DNA of 64,000 bases from an uncultured Lentisphaerota bacterium (GTDB taxonomy: Bacteria; Verrucomicrobiota; Kiritimatiellia; CAIQIC01), in assembly GCA_903889245.1 (NCBI GenBank), contig CAISWQ010000028.1, positions 1-64,000 of the forward strand. Direction: 5' to 3'. Shown piece after piece: positions 3,547 to 62,610 of this stretch; position 1 is the first letter of the stretch, and every line of letters starts with the position of its first letter. The translations under genes and the position numbers were made by a program. Below the pieces are notes generated by a model, which ran no database searches, was not told the origin of the DNA, and saw only the letters and a program-made list of their open reading frames with translations.

Positions 3547-3596
3547 TTTCCAAGGTTTGGAAGAGTTTGCGAGCCTTTTTCCAAGCCTTGGAAAAG
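3547..3596. repeat. PAL-31 palindrome pair
   Basis: Two copies of the TTTTCCAAGSCTTGGAAAA palindrome, centred at 3555 and 3586, 31 bp apart. They lie between the end of the HTH-EIIA gene and the start of the flippase gene, which run in the same direction. The first copy has one changed arm (AAG/TTT). Confidence 0.9.
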
Positions 3597-7553: not shown

Positions 7554-7610
7554 GCGGCGTGGTCAGGTTCCCATATTCGCCCCACCCCGACAAGCCTATG
7601 CGCGCTGCCG

Positions 7611-7657
7611 TCCAAGGCTTGGAAAAACCGGCCTTGGCTTTTCCAAATCTTGGAAAA
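7611..7657. repeat. PAL-31 palindrome pair
   Basis: Two palindrome copies centred at 7617 and 7648, 31 bp apart, in the gap between two leftward genes (phospholipase-C-like protein and acyltransferase). A separate short inverted sequence, TTTGTGCACACTTTGC with its near copy CTTTGCAAAGTGTGCAC, follows at about 7678-7702. Confidence 0.9.
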
Positions 7658-14129: not shown

Positions 14130-14606
14130 TTGCGGAGCCTCCAGAAACACAGGAAACCATCTTTGCGCCGCCCAACGAGAACATTTTTGCCCCGCTTCTT
14201 TCCCGCAGCCCACAAAATGACACTCATTTTCCCCAGCCATTTCGCCGCAACCAATCCGGGAGATTCTCCCTGACCGGTCGCAACGAAAACAGACTACTAC
14301 ACACCTTTCTAAACTAACAGTATTTTCGTAACAACCCAGCGCGGAGAATCTCCCGCACAGGCTACAACCCTACCTGCAAGCCTGAACGCTCCGTTAAACA
14401 TGCCCAGCATCATCGCGGGTGACTGCGGAGAAGCTCCCTGATGACCCGCAACGCTGTTTGCAAGCTGGAAGACTCCTTGAAAGTACTGCTCCGCTTTGCT
14501 CACCGGAAAAATGACAACCGGAAAACGCCCCGTCAACGCAGCATCCCATCAGGGAGATTCTCCCTGATGACCTGCAACGCAAACACTGGGAAAAGAGCTT
14601 CTCCTT
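14130..14606. repeat. GGGAGA/TCTCCC palindromes on a 42-bp lattice
   Basis: Clear palindromes with core GGAGA/TCTCC are centred at 14264, 14348, 14432 and 14558, so the gaps are 84, 84 and 126 bp, multiples of 42. The copy at 14558 has perfect 11-bp arms (CATCAGGGAGA). Shorter, unrelated inverted sequences fall on the same lattice: GGAG/CTCC at 14138, AAAATGA/TCATTTT at 14222, CGAAAA/TTTTCG at 14306, AACG/CGTT at 14390, AAAAG/CTTTT at about 14600. No dyad was seen at 14180, 14474 or 14516. After several copies the sequence TGATGACC and GCAACG recurs. Confidence 0.75.
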
Positions 14607-14647
14607 TTAGGGCTCTCCGAAAGAAACCGCACAAAAACATGCACCAC

Positions 14648-14948
14648 TTCCAGGTCTCGGAAACATTGACCGGGAAAAGCGCTCAACATTTCCGGGCCTT
14701 GGCAAGAACGCCGGAGCAAACGACGCTGTTTTTCCAAGCCTCGGAACAAACACCTGGATGCTGGACTCATTTTTTCCAAGCCTCGGAACAAACACCCGGA
14801 AAAACCCCTCTCCCTTTCCGGGCCTCGGAAAAAACCCATGGGAAAAGCGCTCCCTTTTCCCAAGCCCCGGAAACAAAACGGGGCTATAGACCAAGTTTTT
14901 TCCAAGACCTGGAACTTTTGCCAAAAAATTTTCCAACCCTTGGGAAAG
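14648..14948. repeat. PAL palindrome array, 42-bp period (8 units)
   Basis: Eight diverged copies of the dispersed palindrome are centred at 14655, 14697, 14739, 14781, 14823, 14865, 14907 and 14938. Six consecutive gaps are exactly 42 bp and the last is 31 bp. Since 42 is divisible by three, the plus strand reads as a degenerate 14-residue repeat (FFQASEQTPG type), but the spacer sequences and poor protein character argue against coding. Confidence 0.9.
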
Positions 14949-18237: not shown

Positions 18238-18310
18238 GGTGGACAGAAAAACAGGCTACAGAAAAACCAGCCCCTTCCCCATTTTTCTGTCTCCTGTTTT
18301 TCTGTCCACC
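18238..18310. repeat. Perfect 18-bp inverted repeat of the GACAGAAAAA type
   Basis: The arms at 18238-18255 and 18293-18310 are exact reverse complements (GGTGGACAGAAAAACAGG). Inside, CAGAAAAA and TTTTTCTG form a second, inner inverted pair. There is no T-run after the stem on either strand, so it is a poor intrinsic terminator; it looks like a small non-autonomous element. Confidence 0.85.
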
Positions 18311-18325: not shown

Positions 18326-18406
18326 TTTCCAAGGCTTGGAAAATTCTCCGCGATTTTTTCCAAGCCTTGGAAAAAGTCCCCTGCGCTCGTTCCCATCCTT
18401 GGAAAA
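18326..18406. repeat. PAL-31 palindrome trio
   Basis: Three copies centred at 18334, 18365 and 18397 (gaps 31 and 32 bp). The third ends five bases before the -35 box of the promoter of the sugar module. Confidence 0.92.
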
Positions 18407-26485: not shown

Positions 26486-26489
26486 TCAT

Positions 26490-26534
26490 TCCCAAGGATT
26501 GGACAAGCGGGGACTGTTTTTTCCAAACTTTGGA
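26490..26534. repeat. PAL-31 palindrome pair
   Basis: Copies centred at 26497 and 26528, 31 bp apart, in the 244-bp gap between the HEAT/ThuA gene and rpsP. Arms are partly decayed (AAG/ATT and AAA/TTT). Confidence 0.8.
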
Positions 26535-26625
26535 TGGGTTCGCACACCCCCGTTCAATACTGGAAGAGGAATGCGTTGGATATTGGCCTGGCAAGGGCCG
26601 CAAGAAGAACAGCCATAAAAAGGGT

Positions 26626-29567: not shown

Positions 29568-29700
29568 TTTTCCTAGCCTTGGAAAATATCGGGCGGATTT
29601 TTCCAGGGCTTGGAAAAAGTTCCGCGAGATTCCTTGTGGCGCGCTTCGCGCCATCCAATCCTTGAAAAAAACGGCCTGCCGTTTTCCAATCATTGGAAAA
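29568..29700. repeat. PAL palindrome array (4 units), gaps 31/52/31 bp
   Basis: Copies centred at 29577, 29608, 29660 and 29691 between the convergent genes msrB and glgP. The 52-bp gap contains a GGCGCG/CGCGCC hairpin near 29640. The last copy, TTTTCCAATCATTGGAAAA, has both arms changed in a matching way (AAT/ATT instead of AAG/CTT), a compensated change that keeps the dyad. Confidence 0.9.
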
Positions 29701-32257: not shown

Positions 32258-32379
32258 GGTGGTCTCCCAATGAGTTGGCCGGAATATGCCAGAAACCGCC
32301 CGCTTTGCCAAAGGTTTCCCCCTCCTGCGGTTTGCGCGCAGGCGGGGGGCATGATAGTGTCCGCGCGCGAGAATAAACC

Positions 32380-32490
32380 ATGTGCGAGACCTGCGGCTGC
32401 GGCGGGAAGCAACCGCAGCATCACCACGACGAAGCGGAGCAAAAAATCCGATTGTCCATCCGCGGAAAGGGCGGTAGGTTTCCCCCGTGA
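32380..32490 (+). pseudogene. Duplicated 5' end of hypB (36-codon relic or leader ORF)
   Basis: From the ATG at 32380 the frame reads [20 protein letters not shown] and stops at 32488-32490. The first 31 bases (32375-32405, with five bases before the ATG) are identical to the start of hypB (33022-33052), and the His-rich part after it is similar; the GTPase domain is absent. Its stop overlaps the GTG start of the antitoxin gene in GTGA. It is either a remnant of hypB cut by arrival of the toxin-antitoxin cassette or a duplicated leader now serving that cassette. Confidence 0.75.
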
Positions 32491-33010: not shown

Positions 33011-33026
33011 AACCATTAAACAAACC

Positions 33027-33815
33027 ATGTGCGAGACCTGCGGCTGCGGCGGTAATCAGCAGCATCAGCACCACGCTCACGAGGACGAGGCGGCCCACCG
33101 GCGCGCCCACGAGCTTGGTCTGCCCCACGAACATCATCATCACGATGTTCCCAATCCGGCGGTTGCCATCATCCTGAAGGAGAATGACCGGCTGGCCGAA
33201 CGTAATCGCGGTTTCTTTCTCGCCAGGAAATTGCTCGTCCTGAATTTGATCTCCGCCCCCGGCGCGGGCAAGACCGCGCTCCTCGAAGCCACCTTCCGGG
33301 CCGCCCAAAAGAAATTCTGTTGCGCCGTCATCACCGGCGATCTGCAAACCGATAACGACGCGCAGCGCCTGCGCGCCGCCGGTGGACCCGCGATCCAGAT
33401 CACCACCGGCACCGCGTGCCACCTCGACGCTCACATGATTCAACACGCGCTGGAACAGCTCGACCTCGATGCGCTCGATGTGTTGTTCATCGAGAACGTC
33501 GGCAACCTTGTCTGCCCCACCCTGTTCGATCTCGGCGAAGACGCGCGCGTCGCGCTCTGGTCGGTGACCGAAGGCGACGACAAGCCGCTGAAGTATCCGC
33601 AGATTTTCCAGAGCGCCGCGTTGACGGTGGTGACCAAGAGCGACCTTGCCGCCGCGACGGAATTTCCGCGCGCTGCCGCGCTCGCATATTTGCGGCAGGT
33701 CGCGCCGCAGGCCGAGGTCATCGAACTTTCTGCGCAGAACGGCGCCGGCCTCGAGGCCTGGCTCGGCTGGGTCGAGGCACGCCTCGCGGCCAAACGCGCC
33801 CGCAAGTTCCACTGA
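33027..33815 (+). CDS. hypB: Hydrogenase nickel-incorporation GTPase HypB
   Basis: A 262-residue G3E GTPase that loads nickel into [NiFe] hydrogenase (or urease). The N-terminus has the high-affinity metal motif CETCGCGG and a His-rich stretch (residues 12-41). Walker A is [11 protein letters not shown] near 76, the switch/metal region has [11 protein letters not shown], and [10 protein letters not shown] and [11 protein letters not shown] contain the C/H nickel site and Walker B. No hydrogenase structural gene or other hyp gene is in the window. Confidence 0.93.
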
Positions 33816-33913: not shown

Positions 33914-33932
33914 TTTTCCAAGCCTTGGAAAA
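33914..33932. repeat. Single PAL palindrome
   Basis: One perfect copy, TTTTCCAAGCCTTGGAAAA, centred at 33923, 31 bases before the start codon of the sulfatase maturase gene. Confidence 0.9.
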
Positions 33933-37682: not shown

Positions 37683-37731
37683 TTTCCAAACCTTGGAAAA
37701 CTCCCGCCGCTGTTTTCCAAGGCTTGGAAAA
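37683..37731. repeat. PAL-31 palindrome pair
   Basis: Copies centred at 37691 and 37722, 31 bp apart, in the divergent gap between a lipoprotein gene and aroE. A gap between divergent genes does not need a terminator, which argues against a terminator role. Confidence 0.92.
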
Positions 37732-41014: not shown

Positions 41015-41037
41015 CGTTGCTTCCTTCCGCGCCGCCC

Positions 41038-41178
41038 TTCCAAGGTTTGGAAACCGATCAGCCGGTTTTTCCAAGGCTTGGGAAATTTCGCGGCCGGAGT
41101 TTCCAGCGTTTGGAAAAAGAGCGCAACGTTTTTCCAAGGCGCGGAAAAAATCCGCCGCGCTTTTCCAAGCCTTGGAAA
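41038..41178. repeat. PAL-31 palindrome array (5 units)
   Basis: Five copies centred at 41045, 41076, 41108, 41139 and 41170 (gaps 31, 32, 31, 31 bp), filling almost the whole gap between the DUF3999 stop (41181) and the site-2 protease start. Spacer sequences differ from each other; some units carry arm changes (AGC/TTT, AAG/CGC). Confidence 0.95.
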
Positions 41179-45392: not shown

Positions 45393-46241
45393 TTACCTCA
45401 CGCCGGTGACGATACGATCCCAGCCGGCAAAATCCTTTTTCACGACGACGTTCACGAAGCCCGCGGCTTTCAGCAACGCCGCCACACGCCGGCCCTGATC
45501 CTCGCCGATCTCCAACGCCAGCGCGCCGCCGGGCGCGAGTTTCGCCGCCGCTTGCGCCACGAGCCGGCGGATCACGTCGAGCCCATCCGTACCGCCATCG
45601 AGCGCACCGCGCGGCTCGCAGTCGCGGATGGTGCGGTCGAGCGTCGCCCATTCCGCCGTCGGCACATAGGGCGGATTACTGACGATCAAATCCAGTTCGC
45701 CATCAGCAAACGGTGCGAGCAGATCGGCCTGCATGAACGCCATCTTGTGGGCGACGCCGTGCCGCGCCGCGTTCTGCCGCGCCAGCGCGAGCGCGTCGGG
45801 GCTGATATCCACGGCAAAAATCCGCGCGTGCGGCCGGGCCAGCGCCAGCGTGATGGCGAGGCAGCCGGTGCCGGTTCCAAGGTCTGGAACTTTCGGGTGC
45901 TGCTTTTTCCAAACCTTGGAAAAATCCAGCGCCGCCTCGACCAGCAGTTCCGTCTCCGGTCGCGGAATCAACGCGCGCGCATCGCAGACGAAGACGCGCC
46001 CGCAGAATTCAACTTCGCCGAGGACGTAGTGCAGCGGCTCGCCGGCCTCCAGCCGCTGCGTCTGCGTCTTCAACTGCGCGAGTTGCGCGGGCGTCAGCTT
46101 CCGCTCGCCGTGCAGATAGACCTCCAGCCGGCGGCAGCCGAACAGATGGGCCAGCAACGACTCGGCCTCCGCCGTGGCCTCCTCGCGCCCCGCCGCCTTC
46201 AGCGTCACGATCAACCGCTTGAGTTCGCCGCCCGCGTCCAT
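45393..46241 (-). CDS. prmC: Release factor glutamine methyltransferase PrmC with repeat-derived insertion
   Basis: A 282-residue HemK/PrmC that methylates the GGQ glutamine of release factors. The N-terminal helical domain spans about 1-75 and ALIPRPETELLVE is at 90-102. SAM motif I is DLGTGTG at 120-126, and the catalytic NPPY lies in VSNPPYVP near 188. Residues 107-120 (FSKVWKKQHPKVPD) are encoded by two dispersed palindromes, centres 45914 and 45882. The usual hydrophobic VLD before LGTG is replaced by VPD. The frame is intact, so the enzyme may still work. Confidence 0.9.
   Translation of the reverse strand: MDAGGELKRLIVTLKAAGREEATAEAESLLAHLFGCRRLEVYLHGERKLTPAQLAQLKTQTQRLEAGEPLHYVLGEVEFCGRVFVCDARALIPRPETELLVEAALDFSKVWKKQHPKVPDLGTGTGCLAITLALARPHARIFAVDISPDALALARQNAARHGVAHKMAFMQADLLAPFADGELDLIVSNPPYVPTAEWATLDRTIRDCEPRGALDGGTDGLDVIRRLVAQAAAKLAPGGALALEIGEDQGRRVAALLKAAGFVNVVVKKDFAGWDRIVTGVR
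45875..45923. repeat. PAL palindrome pair inside prmC
   Basis: Copies centred at 45882 and 45914, 32 bp apart, within the coding region. In the coding sense they give FSKVWKK and KVPDLGT. This is the only pair found inside a conserved gene. Confidence 0.92.
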
Positions 46242-46281: not shown

Positions 46282-46303
46282 TTTTTCCAAGGGCTTGGAA
46301 AAA
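46282..46303. repeat. Single PAL palindrome
   Basis: One copy with an extra central base (CCAAGGGCTTGG), in the divergent gap between prmC and a small membrane-protein gene. Confidence 0.85.
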
Positions 46304-51296: not shown

Positions 51297-51345
51297 TTCC
51301 AAGCCCCCGGGATAAAAACACCGCCCTTCGTCCAAGCCTTGGAAA
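51297..51345. repeat. PAL palindrome pair (first copy decayed)
   Basis: A decayed copy near 51304 and a good copy centred at 51337, about 33 bp apart. Confidence 0.7.
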
Positions 51346-51389: not shown

Positions 51390-51565
51390 CTTGGCAGCGG
51401 CGGGCGTACCGCTGCCAAGACCTCCGGTTTCCTGTCCTGGCCGGTGCGTTCGACTGTCAAGGCGCGGTGTTTTTGGGCAGCGGTACGGCTGAGGCTGCCA
51501 AGGCACGACGTTCCGCTGCCAAGGAATCCAATTTTTAGCCCAGAAATCCATTTTCGCTGCCAAGG
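51390..51565. repeat. GCTGCCAAGG dispersed decamer
   Basis: GCTGCCAAGG or GCTGCCAAGA begins at 51411, 51494, 51515 and 51556, with an inverted CTTGGCAGC at 51390-51398. The spacings 83, 21 and 41 bp are close to eight, two and four helical turns. Two copies continue as GAATCCAA. Possibly a half-site relative of the large palindrome family. Confidence 0.6.
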
Positions 51566-51854
51566 AATCCAAAATCTTGCCTTAGGAATTAGAAAAAACT
51601 GTCAAGAAATTGAAAAACTAAACACTCCCCCACAAAATAAACGCTCATTGTTGCCAAAAAATGCATGTTTTCTTGAAACTGGGGCGCCTGTGGACGTTGG
51701 ACGGCTTGGCGTGAGATCTTCTCCGGCAGACGTACGCAAAGGCGCGAAGCCGGCTGCTGCGCTCCTGCCCGCCGGCCCTGTTCACCGCCCTTCTTTCCCA
51801 GCCTTCCTGCCTTCCACATTCAAGCCGCTTATTGGGAGCGCAGGAACGACGCAG

Positions 51855-57637: not shown

Positions 57638-57641
57638 TGTG

Positions 57642-57750
57642 TTCCAAGCCTTGGAAAAATCCGCGCGGAAAGTTCCAAGGCTTGGAAAAAAATCCATGAA
57701 ATTTTCCCATGCCTGGAAAAAACCATAGTCCGCGGTTCCCATCCCTGGAA
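57642..57750. repeat. PAL-31 palindrome array (4 units)
   Basis: Copies centred at 57649, 57680, 57711 and 57743 (gaps 31, 31, 32 bp). The array fills the gap from the floA stop to the ATG of the next gene; the last unit ends two or three bases before that ATG. Confidence 0.95.
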
Positions 57751-57752
57751 AC

Positions 57753-62496: not shown

Positions 62497-62610
62497 TTTT
62501 CCAGGGATTGGAAAAGCCGGGATGCTGTTTTTCCAAGCCTTGGAAAGTTTCACCAGTCACTTCTCCAAGATTTGGAAAAAGCGGGCCGGAGTTTTCCAAG
62601 GCTTGGAAAG
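62497..62610. repeat. PAL palindrome array (4 units)
   Basis: Copies centred at 62506, 62538, 62570 and 62601 (gaps 32, 32, 31 bp) between batA and batB, inside an operon, after a short ATTTATGAT tract (62453-62486). A terminator here would split the operon, so another role is likely. Confidence 0.95.

Follow-up and report, generated by a model that had tools for sequence, protein, structure and literature searches.

Uptake sequences (USS and DUS) are known to originate by point mutation, to prefer non-coding DNA and to be evenly spaced (PMC1939737; PMC7811141), and DUS form lineage dialects around a fixed core (PMC3630211). Sites of Lrp-family regulators have their centres two or three helical turns apart (PMC2995911), while the HIP1 octamer is tied to DNA methyltransferases (PMC4390886). 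Here we describe a dispersed palindrome, TTTTCCAAGSCTTGGAAAA, of which two in-frame units lie in prmC, the gene for the release factor N5-glutamine methyltransferase, within a 64,000-nt stretch of DNA (the window), and we compare it with these systems. The source genome of the window is designated G000 (assembly of 5.26 Mb) and its congeners G001 to G003; the genomes compared were mostly MAGs.

The palindrome pair in prmC and its origin

The open reading frame that carries the pair (Table 1) matched TIGR03534 in a profile search with 281 bits versus a cut-off of 199, and its product matched the structures 2b3t and 1t43 (E. coli HemK/PrmC); both DLGTGTG, the D-x-G-x-G SAM loop, and SNPPYVP, with the NPPY motif, are present in the translation. 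A first-pass annotation had reported two palindrome units 32 bp apart in this frame, encoding FSKVWKK and KVPDLGT, and the codons read as claimed. The upper unit, TTTCCAAACCTTGGAAA, differs at one position from the 17-mer TTTCCAAGSCTTGGAAA and reads TTT TCC AAG GTT TGG AAA AAG on the coding strand (FSKVWKK, residues 107 to 113), while the lower unit, GTTCCAAGGTCTGGAAC, is a weak match with 4 of 17 positions off and reads AAA GTT CCA GAC CTT GGA ACC (KVPDLGT, residues 117 to 123), the two being 32 bp apart from start to start. When 30 PrmC proteins of the class were aligned, the further remark that a proline stands where a hydrophobic residue is usual was borne out: P119 directly precedes D120 of the SAM loop in G000, the relatives mostly have V, A, I or L at this position (S in G002, A in G003, and L in the E. 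coli protein 2b3t), and P was found only in G000 and G001. Direct reading likewise confirmed that the palindrome unit is open in all six frames.

Table 1. Palindrome units and arrays in the window, with the gene that carries the in-frame pair (spacings in bp, start to start; a dot marks features listed without a strand)
Feature	Position	Strand	Remarks
prmC, release factor N5-glutamine methyltransferase gene, carries pair	45393..46241	-	282-aa ORF; TIGR03534; 2b3t/1t43
Upper palindrome unit	45905..45923 (17-mer 45906-45922)	.	1 mismatch, 0 in G001; FSKVWKK
Lower palindrome unit	45873..45891 (17-mer 45874-45890)	.	4 mismatches; KVPDLGT of SAM-binding loop
Weaker single unit	46285..46301	.	3 mismatches; divergent region upstream of prmC
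Intergenic pair	3547..3594	.	Spacing 31
Intergenic pair	7609..7656	.	Spacing 31
Intergenic array, eight units	14647..14946	.	Spacing 42 (x6), then 31
Intergenic array, three units	18326..18405	.	Spacings 31 and 32
Intergenic pair	26489..26536	.	Begins 4 nt past stop codon
Four-unit array	29569..29699	.	Convergent region; spacings 31, 52, 31
Single perfect intergenic unit	33915..33931	.	
Intergenic pair	37683..37730	.	Spacing 31; divergent region
Five-unit array	41037..41178	.	Spacings 31, 32, 31, 31; fills intergenic region
Single intergenic unit	51329..51345	.	
Four-unit array	57641..57751	.	Begins 4 nt past stop codon
Intergenic array, four units	62498..62609	.	Spacings 32, 32, 31

The prmC palindromes arose through point substitutions, with no insertion. 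The pair region was of equal length in all four genus members, and the alignment of 30 PrmC proteins needed zero insertions there. Insertion into the gene, one of the two origins put forward in the first-pass annotation, was therefore refuted, and the prmC of relatives showed no length change that could be counted as its length. The framework F-S-x-V-W-x-K and K-V-x-D-L-G is already present in palindrome-free congeners: the prmC genes of G002 and G003 are without palindromes and read FSTVWEKSQPKVSDLGTG and FSQVWKKPRPKVADLGAG, respectively, in the pair region, and most of the residues are therefore older than the palindrome. An ancestral protein sequence, shared with palindrome-free relatives, is what had been named as speaking against the earlier proposal, and this applies to most of the residues, with K109 and P119 being new. 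These two (T or Q replaced by K at 109, S or A by P at 119) are the only protein changes clearly tied to the site, and the changes linked to it were mostly synonymous (GTG to GTT, TTG or CTG to CTT, and GGC to GGA).

Mismatches of the lower unit to the motif numbered 12 in G004 and G007, 10 in G002 and G003 and 4 in G000 and G001, and those of the upper unit 5 to 8 (G004, G007), 4 to 5 (G002, G003), 1 (G000) and 0 (G001). In the prmC tree, G002 and G003 grouped together (91/93), while G000 and G001 had no resolved placement relative to them; the gain may therefore have been one event common to G000 and G001 or may be older than the split. Origin in place was also found in other genes. The insertion comparison covered coding units, and those compared outside prmC aligned to orthologues without an indel at the site; the sole gap seen, for the unit at G001:C5 32052, was a single residue where the N-terminus aligned poorly.

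A chance origin of the prmC pair is excluded. When each gene was recoded synonymously 5,000 times with the genome's own codon usage and scored for a pair at 31/32 bp, 0 of 5,000 recodings gave a pair as good as that observed in prmC of G000 and of G001. The palindrome-free prmC genes were unremarkable, their own observed level being reached by 576 (G002) and 1,165 (G003) of 5,000 recodings. Elsewhere in G001, G002 and G003, five more gene cases gave 0 of 5,000 each (seven gene cases in all); one of these, located in the gene at G001:C47 44932-45783, is common to G001 and G002 and partly present in G003. Since the protein was fixed in these recodings, the signal lies on the DNA. Across the window, 36 units with at most 3 mismatches were found, versus 1 in the reversed sequence.

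Abundance, helical phasing and chromosomal placement

Genome statistics were compiled from about 0.54 Mb of G000 and about 0.42 Mb of G001 contigs (about 0.96 Mb), with simple hexamer-based gene calls made for this analysis, and were complemented by whole-genome pattern counts. The exact 17-mer occurred 691 times in G000, 379 times in G001, 213 times in G002 and 62 times in G003, and the reversed pattern 0 times. Units were mostly intergenic, amounting to 104 of 113 in the initial sample of G000 and 133 of 166 in that of G001, and to 220 of 259 and 181 of 231, respectively, in the larger sample, with intergenic DNA making up 10 to 16% of the sequence. At the locus of the last array in Table 1, G001 instead carries a pair within the final part of the upstream gene's orthologue.

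The array spacings are whole helical turns. Unit distances in G000 were concentrated at 31/32, 42, 62/63, 83/84, 93/94 and 125/126 bp, and those in G001 mostly at 32 bp; an offset scan with a weight matrix yielded these peaks again, with weak additional ones at 21/22, 53 and 73 bp. Phase concentration was R = 0.92 at 10.5 bp and was still 0.89 when the 31/32-bp class was left out, and spacings of 22, 30 to 32, 42, 52/53 and 63 bp recurred in other families. The spacers themselves are unrelated between copies, and their positions carry little information. The centres of partner units are preferentially ordered G then C, most clearly in G001, and pairs therefore tend to be inverted. Inverted shared deviations between partners numbered 11 versus 17.5 expected in G000 and 12 versus 10.2 in G001, and this lack of compensatory covariation argues against an RNA or cruciform stem. 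Direct-orientation shared deviations, in turn, reached 37 versus 17 expected in G000, so part of the array growth in this genome is local duplication. The stretch 14647-14899, with seven units at exactly 42-bp spacing and partly shared flanks, looks like such a case and is probably a local tandem expansion.

Clusters in G000 occurred once per 4.9 kb on average, and their gaps were more even than those of simulated random intergenic placement (CV 0.54 versus 0.80, p < 0.001). Of three G001 contigs tested singly, two were significantly even, and the pooled G001 data were not significant because of one 22-kb hole. This hole (G001:C18 41119-63412, L044-L045) is site-free, has a lower G+C content and contains glycosyltransferase and ABC-transporter genes; it is probably an acquired surface-polysaccharide island. 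Convergent intergenic regions were the most occupied (22 of 32 versus 87 of 205, p = 0.007), and in tandem regions the median distance of clusters was 25 nt from the preceding stop codon and 75 nt to the following start. This placement is unlike that expected of promoter operators.

Several other repeats were noted in the window, where the search against Rfam gave no match above the gathering score. A near-perfect inverted repeat at 18238-18310, with 29-nt arms and a 15-nt loop and rich in ACAGAAAAA / TTTTTCTGT, is located directly upstream of a palindrome array and could be a terminator or a separate element. The segments 32372-32428 and 33019-33075 form a 57-nt direct repeat, 88% identical, each with an ATG opening MCETCGCGG..., which suggests a duplicated gene start. 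Direct repeats around GGGAGATTCTCCC at 14243-14585 represent a second short palindrome family in an intergenic region, and three CCGCTGCCAAGGAATCCAA-like copies are present in the intergenic region at 51407-51581.

Distribution across the class and candidate binders

The exact 17-mer was detected in 19 of the 388 genomes of a phylum sample, all in the class of the window; among them, two genera of another family had 84 and 114 copies, also with 31/32-bp pairs. The generic form TTTTCCA-N5-TGGAAAA was present in 14 to 718 copies in every sampled member of the order and in 20 to 200 copies in several other families of the class, where its occurrence is patchy; other classes of the phylum had 0 to 2 copies, rarely 4 to 7, with 0 to 1 for the reversed control. 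The centre differs as dialects do, being AGSCT in this genus and ATGRT in others, with, for example, CGCCG in one family. Motif-rich genera include motif-free members, as in a single genus in which G081, G190, G252 and G270 have 96 to 157 generic sites and G094 and G126 have 0 to 1 (0 in G094 versus 147 in G252). Low-copy genomes, inspected in search of an ancestral regulon, hold many degenerate sites, and no core regulon therefore emerged.

The class that bears the motif is probably Kiritimatiellia, and G121, probably the cultured Tichowtungia aerotolerans, has 202 generic sites. Open-access literature yielded no paper for the exact motif strings and nothing relevant for Kiritimatiellia together with palindrome, and Pontiella papers, for the few terms checked, contained no mention of such a motif.

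ParB, HU and Lrp were checked as binders of the palindrome, and none was supported. ParB was rejected, as G000 and G001 have one clear ParB and the genus retains canonical parS, which is kept in G001 to G003 and most of the class, with no exact copy found in G000. Loss and replacement of HU was discarded because HU is universal. For Lrp/AsnC the geometry fits, but neither its presence nor its HTH tracks the motif, and no consistent array was found at lrp. Of 72 genomes, 69 have Lrp, and these include motif-free genomes whose Lrp has a similar HTH. Nearly every genome of the class encodes a single full-length Lrp, and the three that lack it (G028, G047 and G143) are also motif-free. ComEC was present in 35 of 37 genomes, motif-bearing and motif-free alike, and was not found in G003 or G004; as a sign of uptake it is uninformative.

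Explanations of the sites and comparison with known systems

The exact three-helical-turn pairing suggests that these many sites are landing pads for a putative DNA-binding protein across the class. We lean toward the reading that the prmC units are one copy of genome-wide sites for a cooperative, probably architectural, putative DNA-binding protein. Such a sequence-specific protein, probably a dimer on each 17- to 19-bp palindrome, would bind cooperatively to sites on one face of the helix, and this would hold neighbouring sites at distances of two, three or four turns (about 22, 31/32 or 42 bp). The sites stand every few kb, mostly just downstream of genes and between convergent genes, a placement more readily expected of an architectural or chromosome-organising protein than of a promoter operator, although the 3'-end bias also fits a role in termination, which counts against the architectural reading. 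Sites come and go by point substitution, with selection probably acting on the DNA; wherever a coding sequence was motif-like beforehand, as in prmC, codons changed, mostly synonymously, until the motif was complete. The broader proposal, which we make tentatively, is that the class (probably Kiritimatiellia) may have an undescribed chromosome-organising system with hundreds to thousands of phased palindromes, one every few kb, a cooperative putative protein, lineage dialects and an effect strong enough to reshape codons of conserved genes such as prmC.

Among the explanations weighed, a protein-binding array ranks first, uptake-like drive second and a promoter regulator third. The second would make the sites a self-DNA signal, an uptake or recombination-preferred sequence spread by molecular drive as with DUS/USS and with no structural role. 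The palindrome shares point-mutation origin, non-coding preference and even spacing with USS/DUS, and its lineage dialects surround a fixed core, as in DUS (PMC3630211); furthermore, sites are absent from the low-GC glycosyltransferase island in G001 and ComEC exists in nearly all genomes. However, uptake sequences are not 19-bp palindromes arrayed at exact helical multiples, one unit per fragment should suffice, and ComEC occurs just as widely in motif-free genomes and was not detected in G003, a genome with 96 generic sites. We regard this explanation as unlikely.

That the sites are operators of one global regulator, of Lrp type or similar, at promoters, is a distinctly doubtful alternative, given that convergent regions, where promoters should be lacking, are the most occupied, that clusters hug stop codons, that the same Lrp, with a similar HTH, persists in motif-free genomes (compare G094 and G252, with 0 and 147 sites) and that lrp itself has no consistent array; its merits are the two- or three-turn centre spacing known for Lrp-family sites (PMC2995911), the near-universality of Lrp and the motif-free state of all three Lrp-less genomes. 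It is very unlikely that the paired units act as an RNA-level element, either a terminator or a 3'-end stabilising hairpin. Sites do occur directly past stop codons and between convergent genes, and pairs can base-pair, with the G..C centre order favoured, but partners lack compensatory covariation, a loop length need not give 31/32, 42, 63 or 94 bp, sites such as those in prmC lie mid-gene, and no U-tract follows the stem.

The second origin offered in the first-pass annotation, in which a similar native sequence was converted toward the motif, stood as gradual substitution, in line with the mismatch series 12 to 10 to 4 and 5-8 to 4-5 to 0-1, but not as copying by gene conversion. Although native prmC sequence was already similar, short-tract conversion would be expected to produce tracts of more than 17 bp with flanks, whereas the 15-bp spacer and both flanks in prmC stayed native and spacers are unrelated genome-wide; on these grounds it is hardly credible that the palindrome was copied into the gene. 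A mobile palindrome of REP, REPIN or MITE type, inserted into prmC and tolerated as stop-free, would match the high copy number, mostly intergenic location and inverted-pair tendency but was ruled out by the lack of any empty-site length change in prmC or the other compared genes, the intermediate states in relatives and the spacers that differ between copies.

Returning to the putative protein-binding array, the prmC pair offers a clean case in which DNA-site selection or drive changed the codons of a conserved enzyme, and it draws attention to an extensive, unstudied collection of putative protein-recognition sites across a bacterial class. As this class seems to include cultured members (probably T. 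aerotolerans), the binder can be sought directly, and if the protein is architectural, the evenly spaced, phased sites would be a tractable model of bacterial chromosome organisation.

Compared with described systems, the palindrome resembles HIP1 (GCGATCGC) of cyanobacteria as a highly iterated palindrome with uneven copy number in a large clade, but it is longer, degenerate, mostly intergenic and paired, and on direct reading it contains no GATC or CGATCG. Its half-site resembles TGTTCCAC of parS, the ParB site; canonical parS, however, coexists in a few copies, and the palindrome, present in hundreds of copies, is longer by 3 central bases. With REP, BIME and REPIN elements it has in common intergenic palindromes at gene 3' ends, many copies and inverted pairing, and it differs from them in having no conserved spacer, a strict 31/32-bp spacing, an in-place origin and a unit that is a full palindrome. 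Operators of Lrp/AsnC proteins (archaeal Lrp-like regulators) likewise have their sites aligned on one helical face at intervals of two or three turns; the sites described here differ in numbering hundreds genome-wide and in lying at gene ends, and Lrp does not track the motif. DUS (Neisseriaceae) and USS (Pasteurellaceae) are alike in hundreds of copies, non-coding preference, even spacing, point-mutation origin, dialects and absence from an apparently acquired island, whereas the palindrome described here is 19 bp long, forms whole-turn arrays and has no known link to uptake. DUS/USS are the nearest precedent for the evolutionary behaviour of these sites, and Lrp is the nearest for their geometry.
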